Virus record (IMG/VR): IMGVR_UViG_3300037258_000033
Span: 1-45,829 of that record
Source of the DNA: a virus
Direction: 5' to 3' (one strand)
DNA length: 45,829 bases
This document shows, one piece after another, positions 727 to 45,829 of this stretch (the first letter of the stretch is position 1; each line of letters begins with the position of its first letter). The translations under genes were made by a program, and so were the position numbers. Below the pieces are notes generated by a model that saw nothing but the letters and a program-made list of their open reading frames with translations, was not told the DNA's origin and searched no databases.

Positions 727-1491
727 TCATCGGTCTACCGCCGCCCCACCGCTGACCATGCAGGCGTAGGCCCGGGCGACGGTCTGCTCGTCGACCGGCG
801 GCTGCACGTGTGCGGTGAGCTCGTCGAACAAATCGAGAGCCCTCTTGGCGAAGATGAGCCGAGCTCCCGGCCCGTCTTCTCTCACTGCGGCGTAGGCGGC
901 GTTTGCGGCGGCGTTGGCGGCGTAGGCGGCGTTGGCGTAGGCGGCGTTGGCGGCGTTGGCGGCGGCGTAGGCGGCGGCGTAGGCGGCGTTGGCGTAGGCG
1001 GCGTTTGCGGCGTTGGCGGCGTTGGCGGCGTATGCGGCGTTGGCGGCGTTGGCGGCGTTGGCGGCGTTGGCGGCGCTTGTGGGGTTCTGAGTCCATTGCT
1101 CAGCTGCCCGGATCGCGTTCAGAGCAATGCCTCGGTGACGTTCAGGGACGAGATGGGTGACCTGCTTGGCCTGGTCGACAGCGATCTTCACCCAGATGAC
1201 GTGCCGCTCAAGATCGGTGAGCGGCAGTCGTCCGGTGCCGACGGTGCGGTGGGCGAGCTCAAGCACGGCGACCGAACAGGCCGGGCAGAGCAGATCCCCT
1301 TGTCGGTGGGTGCAGATTCCGTCGTTGACGCGCTGCACGATGCGTGCCAGCAGCTTGTCGGAGCAGTCCGGGAAGTCGGTGATCGTGGTGTCGCCGTTCT
1401 CCCAGCTGATCAGGTTCATCGCGCAGCCCTTACCGGACCCTGCGGCGTGATTGCCGGTGGCCAGGCGGAGCGGTTCGGTGATGATGTTCAT
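727..1491 (-). CDS. Protein with a long Ala-Ala-Asn/Tyr repeat tract (254 aa)
   Basis: The first 130 residues look globular, with Cys residues at CTH and CPAC that may bind metal. From about residue 137 to 205 the protein is an almost pure run of AAN and AAY triplets, followed by a normal C-terminal segment. The start ATG overlaps the stop of an 18-codon ORF (ATGA). I recall similar N-terminal sequence and Ala/Asn tracts from actinophage hypothetical proteins, where no function is assigned. The tract is encoded by a 9-bp DNA repeat that is prone to length change. Function unknown; a rigid or helical spacer is possible. Confidence 0.8.
   Translation of the reverse strand: MNIITEPLRLATGNHAAGSGKGCAMNLISWENGDTTITDFPDCSDKLLARIVQRVNDGICTHRQGDLLCPACSVAVLELAHRTVGTGRLPLTDLERHVIWVKIAVDQAKQVTHLVPERHRGIALNAIRAAEQWTQNPTSAANAANAANAANAAYAANAANAANAAYANAAYAAAYAAANAANAAYANAAYAANAAANAAYAAVREDGPGARLIFAKRALDLFDELTAHVQPPVDEQTVARAYACMVSGGAAVDR
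888..1076. repeat. Tandem 9-bp GGCGGCGTN repeat inside a coding region
   Basis: About 21 nine-base units of the type GGCGGCGTT or GGCGGCGTA (plus strand) encode the AAN/AAY tract on the minus strand. Units differ mainly in one base, which switches Asn (AAC) and Tyr (TAC). A few units are shifted by one codon, giving ANA or AYA junctions. Confidence 0.9.
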
Positions 1492-9947: not shown

Positions 9948-9969
9948 TGGTTTTCCCTTACCTCGTTAT

Positions 9970-10162
9970 ACTACCCTTAATAATGACTTAATAATGACTT
10001 AATAATGACTTAATAATGACTTAATAATGACTTAATAATGACTTAATAATGACTTAATACCGCAGCGGGCACTATTTCTACCTGTACGAGAGAATCGTAG
10101 ATTTAGGTATAATATAGGTTTGTATATAGTTATATATGTTAAAAAGTCATGGGAAGGGTAGT
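9970..10162. other. Iteron region, candidate replication origin
   Basis: Seven exact head-to-tail copies of TTAATAATGAC (9977-10053) plus a partial copy are followed by a very AT-rich stretch (about 10085-10145). The region is framed by ACTACCCTT (9970-9978) and its inverse AAGGGTAGT (10154-10162). The right side also carries an inverted AAGTCAT half of the iteron. The 11-bp period is close to one helical turn. This is the classic layout of an iteron origin. No initiator is identified. Confidence 0.6.
9977..10059. repeat. 11-bp tandem iterons, seven full copies
   Basis: The unit TTAATAATGAC is repeated without variation from 9977 to 10053 and then breaks off as TTAATAC. It lies in a gap of more than 500 bases without genes (9832-10370). 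Confidence 0.95.
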
Positions 10163-37506: not shown

Positions 37507-37931
37507 ATGTTCAACTCCTTCTTTAGCCAGGAGAAAGTTTGTAGATTACTCATTCCCGCTGTAGGTGTTATTACTTCGCACCTTTCTCGTAATAGTCTGG
37601 CTAATAGGGGTTCATAGTATGCTCTACCTGCATGTATTTGAACTGAAGTAAGCACATCCTGTTCAGTGTAATCCATCAGGCGTTCAAAGGCTTCACGTTG
37701 CCATACGAGACGCTTCGCTTTTGGCCATTCATGTAGCCAACTATCGTAATGTTCTACGTGAAATGTAGTAGGAATTAATCCGTAAAAACTAGAAAGGATA
37801 TACCACTTATCACAGTGTTGCTCTACATACATCTTACGCGCTCTAAATGTTCTTGATATGTATGCTTCTTCTGCGGACACGTTTGCGTTAGGTGCTTTTT
37901 GAAGTGAACATGAAACTAGACCAATAATCAT
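37503..37931 (-). CDS. DUF6884-like protein (142 aa)
   Basis: I start at ATG 37931 (ATGA overlap with the polymerase). IIGLVSCSLQKAPNANVSAE, FRARKMYVEQHCDKWYILSS and FYGLI follow the pattern of DUF6884 proteins (VSCSK, A-E-LY, WYILSAKYGL). The biochemical role of this family is not established to my knowledge. Here Ser/Gln replaces Lys in the first motif. Co-location with DpdA suggests a nucleotide or base-modification link. Confidence 0.65.
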   Translation of the reverse strand: MIIGLVSCSLQKAPNANVSAEEAYISRTFRARKMYVEQHCDKWYILSSFYGLIPTTFHVEHYDSWLHEWPKAKRLVWQREAFERLMDYTEQDVLTSVQIHAGRAYYEPLLARLLRERCEVITPTAGMSNLQTFSWLKKELNI

Positions 37932-40318
37932 ACTTCGCCCCAATTCTTTCCGACCTTAGTTTCTACAGCGAACTTAACGTAATCGCCTACGATGTGTTCA
38001 GCAGACTCGATCATTCGCCTTTCCATTATAGCTTGGACTTCTTCTACGTTGTCTGGGTGACATTCAGCTAAGATTGAATCGTGTACGATATTTCTAACCC
38101 AGCCAATGCCTTTAAGGTCTTGACGTACGTTGGCCATTGCCATAACGCACATGTCACTAGCTGTAGACTGAGGCAAGAAGGCAAGTGCTTCGTTCATTAC
38201 ATCCTTAACGTTCTCTTTAGTAATAAGCATGTAGCGCCTATGACGCCCCCAAGGTGTTACGAGGTCTTGTCCCGCTAGGACAGACTTACGTGTCTGTTCG
38301 CGAAAAGCTACGATATCAGGAATGACTTGGAAGAATGCGGTCATACCTCGTTTGGCTTCTGCTACTGGAATATCATACTCCATAGCGACGCTGTATGCTT
38401 CTCGACCATAACTTAATCCGTAGACATAAGCCTTGATCCTGATTCTAAGTTCTTTCCACGCGGCAGCCCCCATAGTAGCTTTATCTGATCCAGGATACAA
38501 GAGGGGGGTAAGCTCGTCGAATAGATCACGTTCTCCAGCGTTGAAAATTCCCCGGAAATAACTATCTCTAGCGAGGAACGTGAGCACTCGAAGTTCAGCC
38601 TGAGCGTAATCGGTTTGGAGAAAGACATGTTCAGGTCGGCTTGGAACAAACATGGTTCGAATAGCGTCGCCCCGAGGAATGTTTTGGAGATTTGGGTTTC
38701 GACAAGACAACCTACCTGTTGTAGTTCCGTGCAAAAGGAACGTAGGATAAACCCTTCCCCTATAGAGCCGCTTACGAATCCCTTTAACATAAGTTCCATA
38801 CAGCTTCGCTTCCTTTCGATGCTTCAAAAGAATTTGACAGAATTCCAATACTTCAGTACCAATTGTCTCTGAGTGCTTCTCGATGAGCAGTGTAAGAGTT
38901 TCTTCGTTAGTTGAATCAACCAAAACATTGTGATCCTTCAGGTAGTTCTTGACTTGGAGGGGAGATCGCGGATTGATGCCTCCACGCTTATCGTACGTTT
39001 GATCCCCAATAATCTTATCCATTTCCGCTTCAATACTATCAAGACTTTCGATGTACTTATCGTTAAGAACTTCGAGGTATTCACGGTCAATAGCAATTCC
39101 GTTGAGTTCCACAAACATGAGTTCGTTGGATGCGGCCACGAGAAAGTCATGGACCTTACGAAGGTTCTCGCCATCGGAATGAGAATCAAACCTTGCTCGC
39201 CACAAAAGGTACATGTCGTATGTAGCTGATACATCCGTCGCGTTGTACTTGTATAACTTTGGACGTGGTATGGCTCCATACCCAATACCCGGACCGACAT
39301 ACTGTTTGATCTCGTTGTCATACTGCGGGGCGCCGAGGTACTCCACGGCTTGAACTTTAAGTCCATGAATACCTGGTCTTTCATCGAAGACGTACGATGC
39401 TAACATGGTATCGAACCAAAGCGTTAGGCTTCCACAGTGTCGGTAGAGTCCGGCAAGATCGAACTTACCGTTTTGAGCAACAATCCGTCGGGATCGTAGA
39501 AGCTTTCCAAGTCGATCGAGAACCGCTTTGCTCTGTACTGCACCTTCACCAAGTACAAGTACCTTGCCTGGGGCGTAACCGATTCCAACGCAGAGCAAAC
39601 CGTATTGATTTGGATGCTCGAAAGCGAGGTCCTTCTCAACATCGACCTCAATGTCAATGACAAGTATGTCCGCTCTGTCAGCGCTTTGCTCCGCTCCCGT
39701 ACGCTGCCAGATCTGCTTGAGTAGACTAAGGGCATCCACTTCAGTGTCAGCGACGATGTAGTCTGGTGAATTCCATACATGCTGTTGCGCCTTTACCTTT
39801 CCGATGTCTGTAACGATAAAAGGAAACTGATCAGCCTGACGTAAAGCCGCCGCAGGATGGATCGTTGGGATAATTCTAACTCCAGGTAGATACTTACTGC
39901 TCCTTCCGGGTCCGACTCGTAACTTCGTAACACCAGTCTCGCCCAAGATGGAGAGTGCCGCCGAGTTTCCAAGGCTAATGACTGTACTTGCCGCCCTTCC
40001 TCGTAGTTCTGCCAAGAGGCGACTACGACACGCGACAATGGCACTTTGCGGAGGCGTCGTGCCATCAGCTGGCCTACAGAGGGTAGCATTGCTTAGGAAC
40101 ACCTCTTCACGGTTGATTTGGTGGTAATTAAGAACTGTGTCGAGTAACTTACCTGAAGGTCCGATAAATGGTACGCCGGCTCTAGCTTCTTGAACGCCAG
40201 GTGCCTCTCCCACCACTGCCAGTACTGCTCGTTCAGGTCCGACAGAAGGTACGAATCGCCCTCCGACCTGAAGTGGACATTCTTCGCATTTCGCTTGCGG
40301 ATGTTTCCTTTCATTCAT
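37928..40318 (-). CDS. DNA polymerase A with N-terminal uracil-DNA glycosylase domain
   Basis: I use ATG 40318 (796 aa) rather than GTG 40324. Residues 1-190 are a family 4-type UDG: C11, C14, C81 and C97 can hold the iron-sulfur cluster, with GEAPG at 37-41 and HPAAAL at 154-159. An exonuclease follows (VIDIEVD, NGKFDL, YNATDV). The polymerase palm and fingers show GRLSCRNPNLQNIP, QTDYAQAELR (motif A), RIKAYVYGLSYG (motif B) and IVHDSILAE (motif C). It replicates phage DNA. The fusion may read or repair uracil ahead of synthesis. Confidence 0.93.
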   Translation of the reverse strand: MNERKHPQAKCEECPLQVGGRFVPSVGPERAVLAVVGEAPGVQEARAGVPFIGPSGKLLDTVLNYHQINREEVFLSNATLCRPADGTTPPQSAIVACRSRLLAELRGRAASTVISLGNSAALSILGETGVTKLRVGPGRSSKYLPGVRIIPTIHPAAALRQADQFPFIVTDIGKVKAQQHVWNSPDYIVADTEVDALSLLKQIWQRTGAEQSADRADILVIDIEVDVEKDLAFEHPNQYGLLCVGIGYAPGKVLVLGEGAVQSKAVLDRLGKLLRSRRIVAQNGKFDLAGLYRHCGSLTLWFDTMLASYVFDERPGIHGLKVQAVEYLGAPQYDNEIKQYVGPGIGYGAIPRPKLYKYNATDVSATYDMYLLWRARFDSHSDGENLRKVHDFLVAASNELMFVELNGIAIDREYLEVLNDKYIESLDSIEAEMDKIIGDQTYDKRGGINPRSPLQVKNYLKDHNVLVDSTNEETLTLLIEKHSETIGTEVLEFCQILLKHRKEAKLYGTYVKGIRKRLYRGRVYPTFLLHGTTTGRLSCRNPNLQNIPRGDAIRTMFVPSRPEHVFLQTDYAQAELRVLTFLARDSYFRGIFNAGERDLFDELTPLLYPGSDKATMGAAAWKELRIRIKAYVYGLSYGREAYSVAMEYDIPVAEAKRGMTAFFQVIPDIVAFREQTRKSVLAGQDLVTPWGRHRRYMLITKENVKDVMNEALAFLPQSTASDMCVMAMANVRQDLKGIGWVRNIVHDSILAECHPDNVEEVQAIMERRMIESAEHIVGDYVKFAVETKVGKNWGEV

Positions 40319-41081
40319 ACGCACCTGCCCACTGCATCATAGTGCCTACGTTCTTACTTACGAGAGCCAAATCAACTTCTCTGCAATCCTGCTCAAAGTA
40401 ATCAGTAGCGCGTCCGATCTCTAACGTTTTCAACTCGAGACTATCAAGTGATTTGCCTATGATCGAATAGTTAAATGGCATCGACGTATCTATCGAACGT
40501 ACGTAAGGCACTTCTTTACTGAACATTAGAGCTTCGCGTGCAAAGATCTTACTAGCGCCAAACATATGTATGTTTAGTAGCGGGTACTGCTTGTTAATGT
40601 ACTGTGCAATGGTAATACGGGCAAAGAGATTATTCTTCTTAACCAAAAGTCTCGGCACGAAAGCAGTACATACGTATGGCGCCCAGTGTGTTCTCATTAC
40701 GGCATCGATTAGCGCAATCGCTTCGTCAACGTTTTTTCCTTGAGTTACGAAACCGATCCTGATTTCTGAATCTACTAGCAGGTCACTATAGTCGGTCATG
40801 AAGTGGAGAAACTGTACAAATGTTTTGTCTGCATCACCAAGCACATCAGGCACAGCTAGTTCGTCGACTTTATGAGCTAAAGCGCGCTGAACAAACTGAT
40901 TGTCGGGAAGCGCGATTTTCTCCGCCGCGCCGTTATCCATAATAATATAGTCGCCGCGATCTTTGAACTTCCGGTACGCACGTGTATATTCTGGGTACGT
41001 AATGTGTGGTAGCATTAACTGCATATTCGTCATGCTTTGCCACTCTATCAGGTCGAGTGGTGCTATTAAGGCCAATCTCAT
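40311..41081 (-). CDS. dpdA: DpdA-like DNA guanine transglycosylase
   Basis: I start at ATG 41081 (ATGA overlap), 256 aa. The sequence GDYIIMDNGAAE, DELAVPDVLGDADKTFVQF, IRIGFVTQGKN, IHMFGASKIF and YVRSIDTSMPFNYS follows the phage DpdA pattern, a TIM-barrel relative of tRNA-guanine transglycosylase. DpdA exchanges guanine in DNA for a 7-deazaguanine base. Genes for preQ0 synthesis (QueC, QueD, QueE, FolE) are in the same unit, so preQ0 is the likely substrate. Confidence 0.85.
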   Translation of the reverse strand: MRLALIAPLDLIEWQSMTNMQLMLPHITYPEYTRAYRKFKDRGDYIIMDNGAAEKIALPDNQFVQRALAHKVDELAVPDVLGDADKTFVQFLHFMTDYSDLLVDSEIRIGFVTQGKNVDEAIALIDAVMRTHWAPYVCTAFVPRLLVKKNNLFARITIAQYINKQYPLLNIHMFGASKIFAREALMFSKEVPYVRSIDTSMPFNYSIIGKSLDSLELKTLEIGRATDYFEQDCREVDLALVSKNVGTMMQWAGAYE

Positions 41082-41401
41082 GGCTTCACCCAACCTATAT
41101 CGCCAGTACCTCTGAACGCTTGCACACCGATCGTGATGTCTCCACTATCACTTACTTGTCCAGTTTCTTGCAACTTGTCCTCCAAAATCTGTTGCATGAA
41201 CATTAACTTAACAAAGTGATAGCGAGCGTAGTTTGAAACGTCTGCAAGCTCTTCCGCCATCATACGAATTACATCATTAGCAAGAAAAGTAAATTGCCCA
41301 TACTCCTCCTGGCCCTTTTCGTGACGCTTTTGACAAAGCGTATCAAACTCTTTGCTACACTGGTGAATGAACTCTATCAGGTCTTCGTTCTCTTCAGCCA
41401 T
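41078..41401 (-). CDS. MazG-like/NTP pyrophosphohydrolase-like protein (107 aa)
   Basis: ATG 41401 (MAEENEDLIEF) is preferred, following AAAGGGAAA. RHEKGQEEYGQFTFLAND and MMAEELADVSNYARYH carry the ExxxD helix typical of MazG-like proteins. A full EXXE-EXXD set is not obvious, so activity is uncertain. It may sanitise the nucleotide pool. It is coupled to DpdA by ATGA. Confidence 0.68.
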   Translation of the reverse strand: MAEENEDLIEFIHQCSKEFDTLCQKRHEKGQEEYGQFTFLANDVIRMMAEELADVSNYARYHFVKLMFMQQILEDKLQETGQVSDSGDITIGVQAFRGTGDIGWVKP

Positions 41402-41795
41402 TACGAGTTTCCCTTTCTCCACGTTGTCGGGTGAATCGTTCTTCATTAACACGTCGCTTCTCGAAATACGCCGGCATCATATCGATATGAAGCAAGCCGC
41501 ACAGATTCATAAGGTAGGTAAAGATATCTGCTAGTTCCATTACTATTTCGTAACGGACCTTACCATCACCTAGATCAAGACTACCACGTTCTATCTTCTT
41601 GACTATGTTGGCGAGTTCTCCTACTTCGCCTGCTAACGCTAACGTGTGATGCGGAATGCTAGCTGCAATAGGACTGTCACCAAACCAGCGCTCACTATCC
41701 TCCTGACACTGCTTAGCTAAGTCGGCCAAAACTGAAGGCGCACCAGGCCTACGAGTTCCATTGCCTACCTGGGACTTTTGCCCTTCATACATCAT
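41394..41795 (-). CDS. MazG-like nucleotide pyrophosphohydrolase (133 aa)
   Basis: HHTLALAGEVGELANIVKKI and EIVMELADIFTYLMNLCG supply the EXXE and EXXD metal-binding motifs of MazG enzymes, which hydrolyse nucleoside triphosphates to monophosphates. In this setting it may remove unmodified or unwanted dNTPs or alarmones. It overlaps both neighbours (ATGA with folE). Confidence 0.85.
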   Translation of the reverse strand: MMYEGQKSQVGNGTRRPGAPSVLADLAKQCQEDSERWFGDSPIAASIPHHTLALAGEVGELANIVKKIERGSLDLGDGKVRYEIVMELADIFTYLMNLCGLLHIDMMPAYFEKRRVNEERFTRQRGERETRNG

Positions 41796-42349
41796 CTAAT
41801 TACCTCCATAAACTCTGCTTTAGCCGTACGAGCATGGTCTGCGAACACACCAGTCATTGTCGTAGTCGTTGTGATTGCTCCCGCTACTTGCACCCCACGC
41901 ATTGCCATGCATAGATGTTCTGCTTTAAGCTGCACCGCCACACCCAGAGGCTTCAAATTGTCACCCAAGAAGGAAGCAATCTCTTCAGTAAGTTCTTCCT
42001 GAATGTGAAAACCTTTAGCGATCTGTTGGACAGCTCTTGCGAGTTTCGATAGCCCTGCAACTGACGCATTGGGGACATAACCAACTGAGGCGGTACCGTG
42101 AAATGGTAAAACATGATGTGCGCATAAGGAGTAGAACGGTATCGGTGTGACTACAACCATATTTTGCGACTTGGCCTCGAAGGTTGTAAAGTTGAACGAT
42201 TCACGAGTCGTTAACTCCTTAAGTGCCTGCACGAATCTCTTAGGCGTTCCCGCTCTGTGGTCTTCTGGAATTCTCTCCCACGCTTCTAAAGAGGAAAGGA
42301 GAAGTCTAGCTAAAACTTCAGGCCCAATACTTACGAGGTCAAGACTCAT
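41792..42349 (-). CDS. folE: GTP cyclohydrolase I
   Basis: The start at ATG 42349 overlaps the QueE stop (TAATG), giving 185 aa. CAHHVLPFHG (zinc Cys76, His78-79, with His84) and HLCMAMRGVQ (second zinc Cys) are the signature of FolE. It converts GTP to 7,8-dihydroneopterin triphosphate, the first step toward preQ0. Length and order are normal for the family. Confidence 0.95.
   Translation of the reverse strand: MSLDLVSIGPEVLARLLLSSLEAWERIPEDHRAGTPKRFVQALKELTTRESFNFTTFEAKSQNMVVVTPIPFYSLCAHHVLPFHGTASVGYVPNASVAGLSKLARAVQQIAKGFHIQEELTEEIASFLGDNLKPLGVAVQLKAEHLCMAMRGVQVAGAITTTTTMTGVFADHARTAKAEFMEVIR
42252..42261 (+). promoter_or_regulatory. Degenerate CCCTGTGGT-like element
   Basis: GCTCTGTGGT lies inside folE, followed by ATTC 8 bases later. 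Two mismatches separate it from the 9-mer; it is listed only because the ATTC spacing is kept. Confidence 0.25.
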
Positions 42350-43056
42350 TAAATACCTCTCTGTGATCGAACCCATACAACGTTATGGATCTGCATATTA
42401 AAATACCAAGGCAACTCGTCCTCGAGTACCCACTTGATCAGTTTGGCATTAGCGAGTTGTCCCCACACAACACCGTAGTGTACGGTGTAATCGTACAGGC
42501 CATGAATAATGTATTGATTGTAAATATCCTTGGCGAATTCATAATCTTCGCGACTTGCTATAGTAAACTTGATAGTGCTACCGCGAGCAAGAAGTTCAAG
42601 ATTCTTAAGTCGCACTAAATTAGCAGTCTCACTCCATTCACCTGAGCCTGGAAGTTTCCAGTCCATAATGAATTGAACAAGACCAAACGTCCAATCAGGA
42701 TACAATAGCGTGCCGTTACTAAAACATTCAATACTATTGCCCTGGCTCTTTAGGAGTTCAACCAGCCGCTCCAAGTCTCGGTGTTGCTGGAGGAAAGGTT
42801 CTCCACCCGTAAAGCAGACGGTGTAATCCGGTGTCTCCCTTCTACCGGCAACTTCTGCAATCTCTTCCCAGACCTGTTCTGGTTCTTGAAGTTTCCACTC
42901 CTTGCGAAATGCAGGATCGATAGCATGTGGAGTATCACAAGGCCAACCAGGACAACGGAGATTGCACCCACCAAAGCGAACGAATACAGTAGGACGACCC
43001 ACATTAGGACCCTCTCCTTGTACGCTTAGGTAGATTTCACTTACACGTAGTACCAT
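42349..43056 (-). CDS. queE: 7-carboxy-7-deazaguanine synthase (radical SAM)
   Basis: This 235-aa protein opens with SEIYLSVQGEGPNVGRPTVF, the QueE N-terminal signature. The cluster cysteines are C31, C35 and C40 (CNLRCPGWPC), a CX3CX4C spacing rather than the common CX3CX2C. FTGGEPFLQ is the SAM-contacting GGE motif. It turns 6-carboxy-tetrahydropterin into 7-carboxy-7-deazaguanine. Confidence 0.93.
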   Translation of the reverse strand: MVLRVSEIYLSVQGEGPNVGRPTVFVRFGGCNLRCPGWPCDTPHAIDPAFRKEWKLQEPEQVWEEIAEVAGRRETPDYTVCFTGGEPFLQQHRDLERLVELLKSQGNSIECFSNGTLLYPDWTFGLVQFIMDWKLPGSGEWSETANLVRLKNLELLARGSTIKFTIASREDYEFAKDIYNQYIIHGLYDYTVHYGVVWGQLANAKLIKWVLEDELPWYFNMQIHNVVWVRSQRGI

Positions 43057-43229
43057 TACTTACCCTTCCTGGCACGAACCTTCTTAAGGTTAGAATTGTC
43101 AACTTTCGCCTTAGCACTTGCATTGCGACTTGCCGAGGCAAGAATAGCTGCAGCTGCTGCAGGTGACTTACCTTGCGCCTCGATATTCTTCTGAGCCGCT
43201 TTGAAACCCATTCCCTTACGTGCTTTCAT
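43056..43229 (-). CDS. Small basic protein (57 aa)
   Basis: The start ATG 43229 overlaps the QueD stop (ATGA). KARKGMGFKAAQKNIEAQGK, then AAAILASASRNASAKA and a Lys/Arg-rich end. This type of short, basic phage protein is common and unassigned. It probably binds nucleic acid. It sits between queD and queE in the preQ0 cluster. Confidence 0.75.
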   Translation of the reverse strand: MKARKGMGFKAAQKNIEAQGKSPAAAAAILASASRNASAKAKVDNSNLKKVRARKGK

Positions 43230-43741
43230 GATCGCTCCCACCTAGCCATATTGACGGATGTTTCCCATACTTCAACTGCTAATGGCGTACGTTCGAGTTC
43301 TTGACTCATTGCTATCGCGATCCAACTCGCAATGTTTTCTGTTGTGGGATCTCCTGCTGTAGCATTAAGTCCAGGAAGAAATGATTGTGGTTGTGCATCA
43401 TCCATACCAGCAACAACAATAACTTCACGTTCTTGTTCGTGTGGATTCCACCCACCCATAGTTCTGGTCTCGATATTCTTGACTGGATAGATAGGTCCTG
43501 CGAAAGGATCTGATGCGTTTAGTAGAAGGTGATGATCATATGTTTCATCCAGATGTTTACGAAAAACCTTTTTGACGTCGCCGAAATCGAGTCCATCTAA
43601 CATGCCCCGTTTATCTATCGCACCGTCTAGAAACAACGTTACCCACATTGAGTGTCCGTGTATGTTCTCACACTTACCAGGTGTTTCGTACAAACGATGT
43701 GCCACTTCGATATTATGCTTGACTGCTATTACTGCACCCAT
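43226..43741 (-). CDS. queD: 6-carboxy-5,6,7,8-tetrahydropterin synthase
   Basis: I start at ATG 43741 (171 aa). H15 in AHRLYETPGKCENIHGH, with C24, H28 and H30, gives the zinc ligands and the catalytic Cys. DHH at 69-71 and PTTEN are the other QueD signatures. It is longer than the usual 120-140 aa because of an insertion around residues 78-120. It acts on the FolE product. Confidence 0.93.
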   Translation of the reverse strand: MGAVIAVKHNIEVAHRLYETPGKCENIHGHSMWVTLFLDGAIDKRGMLDGLDFGDVKKVFRKHLDETYDHHLLLNASDPFAGPIYPVKNIETRTMGGWNPHEQEREVIVVAGMDDAQPQSFLPGLNATAGDPTTENIASWIAIAMSQELERTPLAVEVWETSVNMARWERS

Positions 43742-44064
43742 TCGTAATCGCCTACGTTCCAAATTGTCAGAGCGATTACGGAGTAGACAGCGCGATCTAG
43801 GAGCGTATCGGCGATTCCCTCATTGGCTGGCTTCAACTTAGTTTTCTTCCAAAGTCTAGGTAGTAGTATACGTAGTCGCGCCTGCTTAGTTGCGATAAGG
43901 CTCTCAACGCTATGACCCGGCGTGAGACCGAGTTGGTAGGCAACGTCGTAGAAATTCTGATTCGGGTGATCGTCGCCTGCGTAGTCTTGTCGCTTGGCAC
44001 GATGTGTCTCCACCATCTTGATTAGTACAGCATCGAAGGCCTCTTCAGGATTCAGTGTTAGCAT
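43729..44064 (-). CDS. DUF1599-like nucleotide-modification-associated protein (111 aa)
   Basis: HRAKRQDYAGDDHPNQNFYD, SLIATKQARLRILL and NEGIADTLLDRAVYSVIAL follow the pattern of DUF1599, a domain known from nucleotide-modification gene clusters. The role is not established. It overlaps queC by 20 bases and queD by 13, so expression is joint. Confidence 0.7.
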   Translation of the reverse strand: MLTLNPEEAFDAVLIKMVETHRAKRQDYAGDDHPNQNFYDVAYQLGLTPGHSVESLIATKQARLRILLPRLWKKTKLKPANEGIADTLLDRAVYSVIALTIWNVGDYEWVQ

Positions 44065-44821
44065 TCGCAATCGCTTCCTTCCAGAACTCGCTGTCCGCGT
44101 ATCTGGTACGATCGTACCAGGTAGTTAATCCTGTTTCTTCCTTATGCATAGCAATAGCACCATGAATAGCTTCCAAACGTTCTACGCATGTTCCACACCT
44201 ACCGCAATGAATATCGCCACCCTTGTAACAACTCCATGTTTCTTCGAGTGGCACCTCTAGTGTAAGAGCAATATGTGCAATGTCTTCCTTTGTAATGTAC
44301 AAGTAGGGCGCTACAATAGGATTGGACCACAGCTCGCCAAAACTTTCATTACCGCAGTACGTAGTATTGCTTACGGCTCTAATAAATTCAGGTCGACAAT
44401 CAGGATAGATAAAGTGGTCGCCTGCATGAACAGCCGTTGCAACCCTATTAGCACCTTTTGCAACGGCAATACCCGCAGCCATACTTAACATAATCATATT
44501 ACGATTCGGAACAACCGTCGCCTTCATAGTCTCTTGTGCGTAGTGTCCTTCTGGAACTGCTGTATCACTGATAAGAGAACTTTCCGATGAGGAAAGCGCC
44601 TCAGGTAGCCCAGAGCTCCACAGGTCGATTAGGATGTGGTTGATATCGAGTTTCTCGCACGTTGCTTGAGCGAATGAGAGTTCCTTTTTGTGACGTTGCC
44701 CGTAGTTAAATGAAACGGCAGCGACAATCTGATCGCCTATTTCTAGCAGTTCGTACAGCAGTGTAGTACTATCCAGACCTCCGCTAAGAACGACAATAGT
44801 CTTATTTTGTCTTGTTGGCAT
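44045..44821 (-). CDS. queC: 7-cyano-7-deazaguanine (preQ0) synthase
   Basis: This 258-aa protein has the PP-loop SGGLDS at 13-18, FNYGQRH, VPNRN, and a zinc set CYKGGDIHCGRCGTC near the end, all diagnostic for QueC. It makes preQ0 from carboxy-deazaguanine with ATP and ammonia. No amidotransferase domain is fused, and no QueF-like gene is seen nearby. Confidence 0.95.
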   Translation of the reverse strand: MPTRQNKTIVVLSGGLDSTTLLYELLEIGDQIVAAVSFNYGQRHKKELSFAQATCEKLDINHILIDLWSSGLPEALSSSESSLISDTAVPEGHYAQETMKATVVPNRNMIMLSMAAGIAVAKGANRVATAVHAGDHFIYPDCRPEFIRAVSNTTYCGNESFGELWSNPIVAPYLYITKEDIAHIALTLEVPLEETWSCYKGGDIHCGRCGTCVERLEAIHGAIAMHKEETGLTTWYDRTRYADSEFWKEAIANANTES

Positions 44822-45829
44822 GCGTTTCTCCCATTGCGGTCGGTTTAACGATTTCAGACTTGCCCCTGCGTTCTCTTCTCACCAGAGCGCGTTGCTCTAG
44901 AGTATCGAACGCATTGTTAGCATCTCGTGCAGTTAGGTGATGTGCTTGCATTAGGGTAGAACGACTAACACCATTAGGATTACGTACAACTGTTCTAAGG
45001 ATTGCATCCAACAGTCTTTCGGCAGATCCCTTTCCTACATTCTCCATTACGTCGTACGCGTGCGCTGCCCATTGTTCACCATACTTAATTGCACGTAAGA
45101 GATCGAGTTCCTGAACGATAACTTGTTCGCCCTCTCTGCGCGAGGCTGCGACGAGTAGTGCAGCCTTTAAGATGGAGTTAGCTAGACGCGCACCGACAGG
45201 CGTCATAATATCTGCTCTTTCGGTGTTTAATCCCTTTGCTAGTAGGTCTGCCTCTAATTGGTTATACCTTACCCAAGCATCTTCGGTCATCGTTGCTTCG
45301 TACGTTACAGTGCGTTGAATCGAACCCTTCAGCTTTTCAATAATCAATGTCTCTGTGCGATTATACGTCTTATAGATGTCTGTCAGCTCTGCGAGAATCA
45401 CGTCTCTATTTCCTGTGGTTGCTTGGGTTGGAGGCCCGATGGGACGTACTTTTGTTAAGTCGCTCTCTGCTGTGATGAAAACGAACCTAGGCATAAAGCC
45501 TGACGATACCATTTCAAGGCCCATCGAACCAGTAACGCGATTCTTAATTCCGCCAGCGAATACAATTAGTCGCGGATCTCGTACTTCGATTACTTCTTTA
45601 CGTAAGATTCGCTTTTGTAGTTTGCCGTCGTACAACTTAGTTAGAAGCTCAGGCATACCGGCCATGTAGTCTTTTTTAGTCATTTGCTCTAGCAGACCAC
45701 TAAACTCGTCGCGCAAGAAGATCGAAGGTCTACCGGGTCTTGTACTTAACGTAGACAGTAAGCCTTCGATCGAACCGTCGGTAGCCATAATAATATCGTC
45801 GTCGACTTCAACGAGCAAGTCCATCGCGA
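44802..45829 (-). CDS. DUF3987-like protein, 5' end outside the window
   Basis: About 340 residues are visible. RPSIFLRDEFSGLLEQM, ELLTKLYDGKLQKRILRKEV, DPRLIVFAGGIKNRV and GFMPRFVFITAESD follow the pattern of DUF3987 ATPase-like proteins, which are linked to primase-helicase modules. The C-terminal 90 residues look like a winged helix (SRSTLMQAHHLTARDANNAF). The frame stays open to the window edge, so the true start lies beyond it. It overlaps queC by 20 bases. Confidence 0.75.
   Translation of the reverse strand, partial: AMDLLVEVDDDIIMATDGSIEGLLSTLSTRPGRPSIFLRDEFSGLLEQMTKKDYMAGMPELLTKLYDGKLQKRILRKEVIEVRDPRLIVFAGGIKNRVTGSMGLEMVSSGFMPRFVFITAESDLTKVRPIGPPTQATTGNRDVILAELTDIYKTYNRTETLIIEKLKGSIQRTVTYEATMTEDAWVRYNQLEADLLAKGLNTERADIMTPVGARLANSILKAALLVAASRREGEQVIVQELDLLRAIKYGEQWAAHAYDVMENVGKGSAERLLDAILRTVVRNPNGVSRSTLMQAHHLTARDANNAFDTLEQRALVRRERRGKSEIVKPTAMGETHANKTK

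Follow-up and report, generated by a model that had tools for sequence, protein, structure and literature searches.

Our analysis indicates that an uncultured, siphovirus-like tailed phage very likely encodes its own 7-deazaguanine pathway and uses it to modify its own DNA, whichever base is inserted. In the sequence analysed (hereafter the window, the whole stretch of 45,829 bases), genes for FolE, QueD, QueE and QueC share a leftward unit with a DpdA-like transglycosylase that standard annotation misses. Carrying modified guanine is one of the ways in which phages are known to shield their DNA from restriction enzymes, and the window adds a well-supported further case of self-made 7-deazaguanine DNA, of a kind already known. 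The window is a 'linear' IMG/VR record that also encodes terminase, portal, head maturation protease, tail proteins and replication genes; megablast against an annotated phage collection returned no close phage for its right third.

The modification genes form a minus-strand unit of overlapping genes at the right end of the contig, given here from left to right:

37928–40324, minus strand: family A DNA polymerase (PolA) with an N-terminal family-4 uracil-DNA glycosylase (UDG) domain and a 3'-5' exonuclease (PF03167, E 8e-23; PF00476, E 5e-60; PF01612, E 2e-7)

40311–41081, minus strand: DpdA-like, putative DNA guanine transglycosylase, 256 aa, placed in the CP220/immuto branch (family profile, fold, motifs)

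41078–41452, likely start 41401, minus strand: MazG-like helical protein 2 (MazG2), usually directly upstream of DpdA

41394–41795, minus strand: MazG-like nucleotide pyrophosphohydrolase 1 (MazG1), possible accessory (phrog_229 MazG, E 6e-9)

41792–42376, minus strand: FolE, GTP cyclohydrolase I (PF01227, E 9e-49)

42349–43056, minus strand: QueE, 7-carboxy-7-deazaguanine synthase (PHROG QueE, E 3e-36; Pfam radical SAM, E 4e-7)

43056–43241, minus strand: 61-aa basic protein (no Pfam or PHROG match)

43226–43762, likely start 43741, minus strand: QueD, 6-carboxytetrahydropterin synthase (PF01242, PTPS, E 3e-24)

43729–44070, minus strand: small DUF1599-like protein of the all-alpha type, resembling NTP pyrophosphohydrolases, possible accessory (PF07659, E 0.017, below cut-off)

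44045–44821, minus strand: QueC, 7-cyano-7-deazaguanine synthase (PF06508, E 2e-56; NCBIfam TIGR00364, above cut-off)

44802–45827, minus strand: DUF3987-type primase/helicase, truncated at its 5' end by the contig boundary (PF13148, E 8e-14; phrog_10514 DNA primase, E 8e-34)

From the primase through an HNH gene, adjacent genes overlap by 1–59 bases. An earlier sequence-only reading had placed the unit at 40311–44821; the genes lie there, leftward and at about those positions, but the unit continues on both sides, with the truncated primase gene on the right and the PolA, DUF6884 and HNH genes on the left. Since the primase gene is cut and the record is linear, the gene absences reported below apply just to the sequenced part. 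Outside the unit, a perfect 11-bp tandem repeat (CTTAATAATGA) at 9965–10070 is intergenic and possibly an origin or regulatory element, and a GGCGTT/GGCGTA repeat array at 868–1102, within the ORF at 727–1491 (minus strand), encodes a low-complexity Ala/Asn/Tyr stretch.

The same reading had described all four preQ0 enzymes as present with intact motifs, and both the Pfam matches and alignments to solved enzymes agree. QueC, which has no fused amidotransferase, keeps the SGGxDSTT loop and CGxCxxC when aligned to the solved QueC 2pg3; QueD keeps the metal and catalytic residues of its solved counterpart (AHR, CxxxHGH and DHH); and FolE, which matches solved GTP cyclohydrolase I at E 2e-35, keeps SLCxHH and HxCMxxRGV. 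QueE aligns its cluster cysteines with those of the solved QueE 5tgs (E 1e-13) and matches the NCBIfam QueE models (TIGR04349, E 1e-37), yet falls under their curated cut-offs. Its cluster motif is odd, CX3CX4C in place of the usual CX3CX2C, the second and third cysteines standing two residues further apart, and a back-translated pattern search showed the motif to be common to 32 viral contigs; the immuto-type QueE has CX3CX7C. The preQ0 set is complete, with its active-site motifs, and in the mechanism we propose the four enzymes would convert GTP to preQ0, QueC acting via the amide ADG.

The transglycosylase, which had likewise been assigned to this unit, was upheld by profile and fold. Neither Pfam nor NCBIfam recognises the protein, and a single-sequence search of the PDB gave nothing useful; the family profile alone succeeded, with 47 relatives matching the solved bacterial DpdA 7ui4 at E 5e-5 and the HLLG and SID..P motifs corresponding. 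Relatives begin at ATG 41081 and not at the upstream TTG 41093, from which the residue numbering used here is counted. An AlphaFold model (pLDDT 93, pTM 0.90) matched 7ui4 in Foldseek at E 7e-4, and TGT structures filled all of the best 50 VIA-align matches (Z about 17 over 229 residues, with an rmsd near 3.4); the epimerases and lyases among the other Foldseek neighbours were set aside as generic TIM barrels. Across 36 clade members D53, N54, E58, D83, R159, H176, G179, D202 and P206 are invariant. In its TGT-fold barrel, conserved aspartates and sequence relation to known DpdA, the protein fits DpdA in the broad sense. D202 is the predicted nucleophile, judged from motif order relative to TGT and without superposition. 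We propose that the enzyme would remove guanines from replicated phage DNA and insert a 7-deazaguanine base, with D202 attacking and D53 and D83 serving in acid/base chemistry and recognition, as TGT does on tRNA.

The fold itself is that of tRNA-guanine transglycosylase, and the preQ0 genes might instead supply queuosine for host tRNA, with the TGT-like protein acting on tRNA; Hutinet et al. raise the possibility of tRNA supply in phages that have the genes but no DpdA (PMC6884629). We consider such a role extremely unlikely here. The TGT zinc motif CxCxxC is missing from the window protein and from all 36 clade sequences, which sets it apart from canonical tRNA TGT; among solved proteins its closest match by sequence (7ui4) is a DNA-guanine transglycosylase, QueF is absent from the window, and genes for primase and DNA polymerase accompany the module.

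Genomic context strongly supports the DNA-modification reading. Among 80 viral contigs with a DpdA relative, 73 carry a preQ0 gene within 7 kb and 52 have three or four preQ0 genes nearby, and 218 of the 219 preQ0 genes near DpdA relatives are on the DpdA strand. The order primase-QueC-QueD-QueE-FolE-(MazG2)-DpdA-PolA is shared by the window and five related contigs (L008, L009, L011, L014 and L018; QueE was not detected in L014), with the primase as the first gene of the conserved module, and recurs as primase-QueC-QueD-QueE-FolE-DpdA-PolA in Bacillus phage BSP7 and Weizmannia phage Youna2. The 32 contigs with the CX3CX4C QueE, many of them short loci, mostly hold the same module: FolE is found in 29, DpdA in 25 (27 with HMM-only matches), QueC in 23 and PolA in 22. 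In a related contig (L016, 4010–4663), a Vut_1/YhhQ-type transporter, of the queuosine-precursor uptake family, lies between QueC and QueD.

Because the transglycosylase gene lies in the same run of overlapping genes as those for primase and polymerase, modification would plausibly be timed with replication. The modified DNA would be protected from host restriction enzymes that have G in their recognition sites. In phage CAjan, deletion of dpdA abolishes both modification and restriction resistance (PMC6884629). That the window phage, with this module, makes no DNA modification at all is in our judgement very unlikely.

Several smaller genes had been put forward as accessory parts, and the proposal survives for the DUF1599-like and MazG-like proteins, which recur in the module. 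MazG1 occurs in 22 of the 32 related contigs, and its relative in L011 passes the Pfam MazG cut-off. MazG2 occurs in 19 of the 32 and in most of L008–L018, with no relative found in BSP7 (Youna2 lay outside that scan); it has no confident family match, and its AlphaFold model is helical and weak (pLDDT 71), too weak for naming by fold. DUF1599-like homologues are present in nine of the 32, at up to 75% identity, and an attempt to equate this protein with those in the same place in BSP7 and Youna2 gave an unconvincing alignment. DUF6884, together with the 61-aa basic protein, drops out as a conserved accessory, with no blastp relative in the 32 contigs. MazG1, MazG2 and the DUF1599-like protein may act on nucleotides, and their role in the proposed mechanism may be to tune the nucleotide pool. 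Members of the clade retain the UDG-PolA fusion, as apparently do BSP7, Youna2 and Brevundimonas phage MaInes, but it was not seen in immuto-type polymerases; we know of no link between a family-4 UDG-polymerase fusion and deazaguanine. In BSP7 and Youna2, PolA (L007, 8686–11589; L111, 9698–12967) is divided between two ORFs with a similar split, and the gap may be an intron.

On profile comparison, the window transglycosylase groups with the CP220/immuto enzymes, not with the CAjan/Rosebush type. In hhalign its clade matched CP220/immuto over the full length (E 2e-24, 243 columns, probability 99.6%) and BSP7/Youna2 at E 1.5e-30; against DpdA1 (CAjan, 9g and Rosebush, the last represented by the Rosebush-species phage ItsyBitsy1) no relation was detectable (E 0.12, probability 0.5%), and the match to DpdA2 of Vibrio nt-1 was marginal (E 3e-4, probability 42%, 89 columns). 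Consistent with this, tblastn with the window protein gave no match to DpdA1 phages of the CAjan/Rosebush type. The phage relatives it did recover were Flavobacterium immuto proteins annotated 'DNA guanine transglycosylase' and Brevundimonas and Bacillus proteins mostly called hypothetical; three of these phages were inspected, and in all of them the gene adjoins preQ0 genes. Identity to the members in named phages is about 20–27%, and bacterial genomes yielded just four distant relatives, all in metagenome-derived assemblies.

Within the same contig pairs, conservation of DpdA lies about 20 percentage points below that of QueC, FolE, PolA and primase, each of which is more conserved than DpdA in essentially every pair. 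Such divergence fits a changing DNA context specificity, with relaxed constraint as an alternative. It is conceivable, if somewhat doubtful, that the clade comprises uncharacterised small DNA transglycosylases of 45–54 kb phages that may replace G fully or at fast-changing contexts, with dADG as a possible base.

Since QueC forms ADG en route to preQ0, dPreQ0 and dADG cannot be told apart from the gene set by itself. We nevertheless favour dPreQ0 as the probable base. The sequence-only reading had derived dPreQ0 from the gene set, and homology, fold and conserved context lend strong support to a self-sufficient preQ0 pathway with a DNA transglycosylase; what does not carry over is the analogy with CAjan and Rosebush, drawn from a different DpdA branch. 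In those DpdA1 phages dPreQ0 makes up about 30% of G (PMC6884629), and the GA/GG nanopore context suggested as a check derives from CAjan and need not apply to the window phage. Weighing against our favoured explanation are the missing profile relation to DpdA1, the low identity to named-phage proteins and, from the same branch, Campylobacter phage CP220, which has QueC without QueF and in which 100% of dG is reported to be replaced by dADG (PMC8306585). With a DpdA of this branch, dPreQ0 and dADG, and partial and complete replacement, are all possible. We give a limited but real chance to the same pathway inserting ADG (7-amido-7-deazaguanine) at all or nearly all guanines, as reported for CP220 and CPt10, whose transglycosylases both fall in the window's branch; at the same time, the CP220 profile match joins proteins that are just about 25% identical.

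If the base were modified further, to dPreQ1, dG+ or some other derivative, the tailoring genes would have to lie beyond the contig end. The contig is linear and cut within the primase gene, which leaves room for such genes and also counts against our favoured explanation, and immuto, which belongs to this broad branch, encodes a separate, real QueF, the only one among the relatives searched. The earlier statement that no QueF, ArcS-like gene or amidotransferase-fused QueC is visible was confirmed for this incomplete contig: QueF, ArcS-type DUF5591, GATase and TGT family searches of the 45.8-kb window were empty. Beyond it, QueF was absent above cut-off from 12 records, including related contigs of 46–54 kb, DUF5591 and GATase were absent from relatives up to 69 kb, and no ArcS-type, Gat or TGT gene appeared in the relatives searched. 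QueF scores above the cut-off in BSP7 and Youna2 fall on genes annotated as FolE; these, like the scores in several contigs, were discarded as cross-matches on FolE, a protein of the same fold. A further-modified base is accordingly improbable, and dPreQ0 remains our preferred reading.

The solved bacterial DpdA (7ui4), a DNA preQ0 insertase, has 436 aa against 256 aa here and belongs to a dpd gene cluster (PMC6884629), whereas the window enzyme sits in a phage replication unit. CAjan and Rosebush (group 2 of Hutinet 2019, dPreQ0) resemble the window in having FolE-QueD-QueE-QueC, no ArcS, Gat or QueF, and a transglycosylase near the DNA polymerase, and differ in that their transglycosylase is DpdA1. 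The CP220 and immuto enzymes, which we take to be the group that Cui et al. 2023 call 'DpdA3', are homologous to the window protein and share its invariant D, N, E, PD, H, G and D..P positions, but at about 25% identity and in genomes of 160–178 kb; immuto also differs in its QueF, and the polymerase of immuto-type contigs lacks the UDG motif. BSP7, Youna2 and MaInes each carry a DpdA homologous to that of the window together with preQ0 genes, and their polymerase matches through the UDG region; BSP7 and Youna2 share the module order, while FolE is displaced in MaInes, and in all three the DpdA is about 22–27% identical and annotated as hypothetical. Since these relatives include cultivable phages, the choices between preQ0 and ADG and between some and all guanines are directly testable in systems whose module resembles that of the window.
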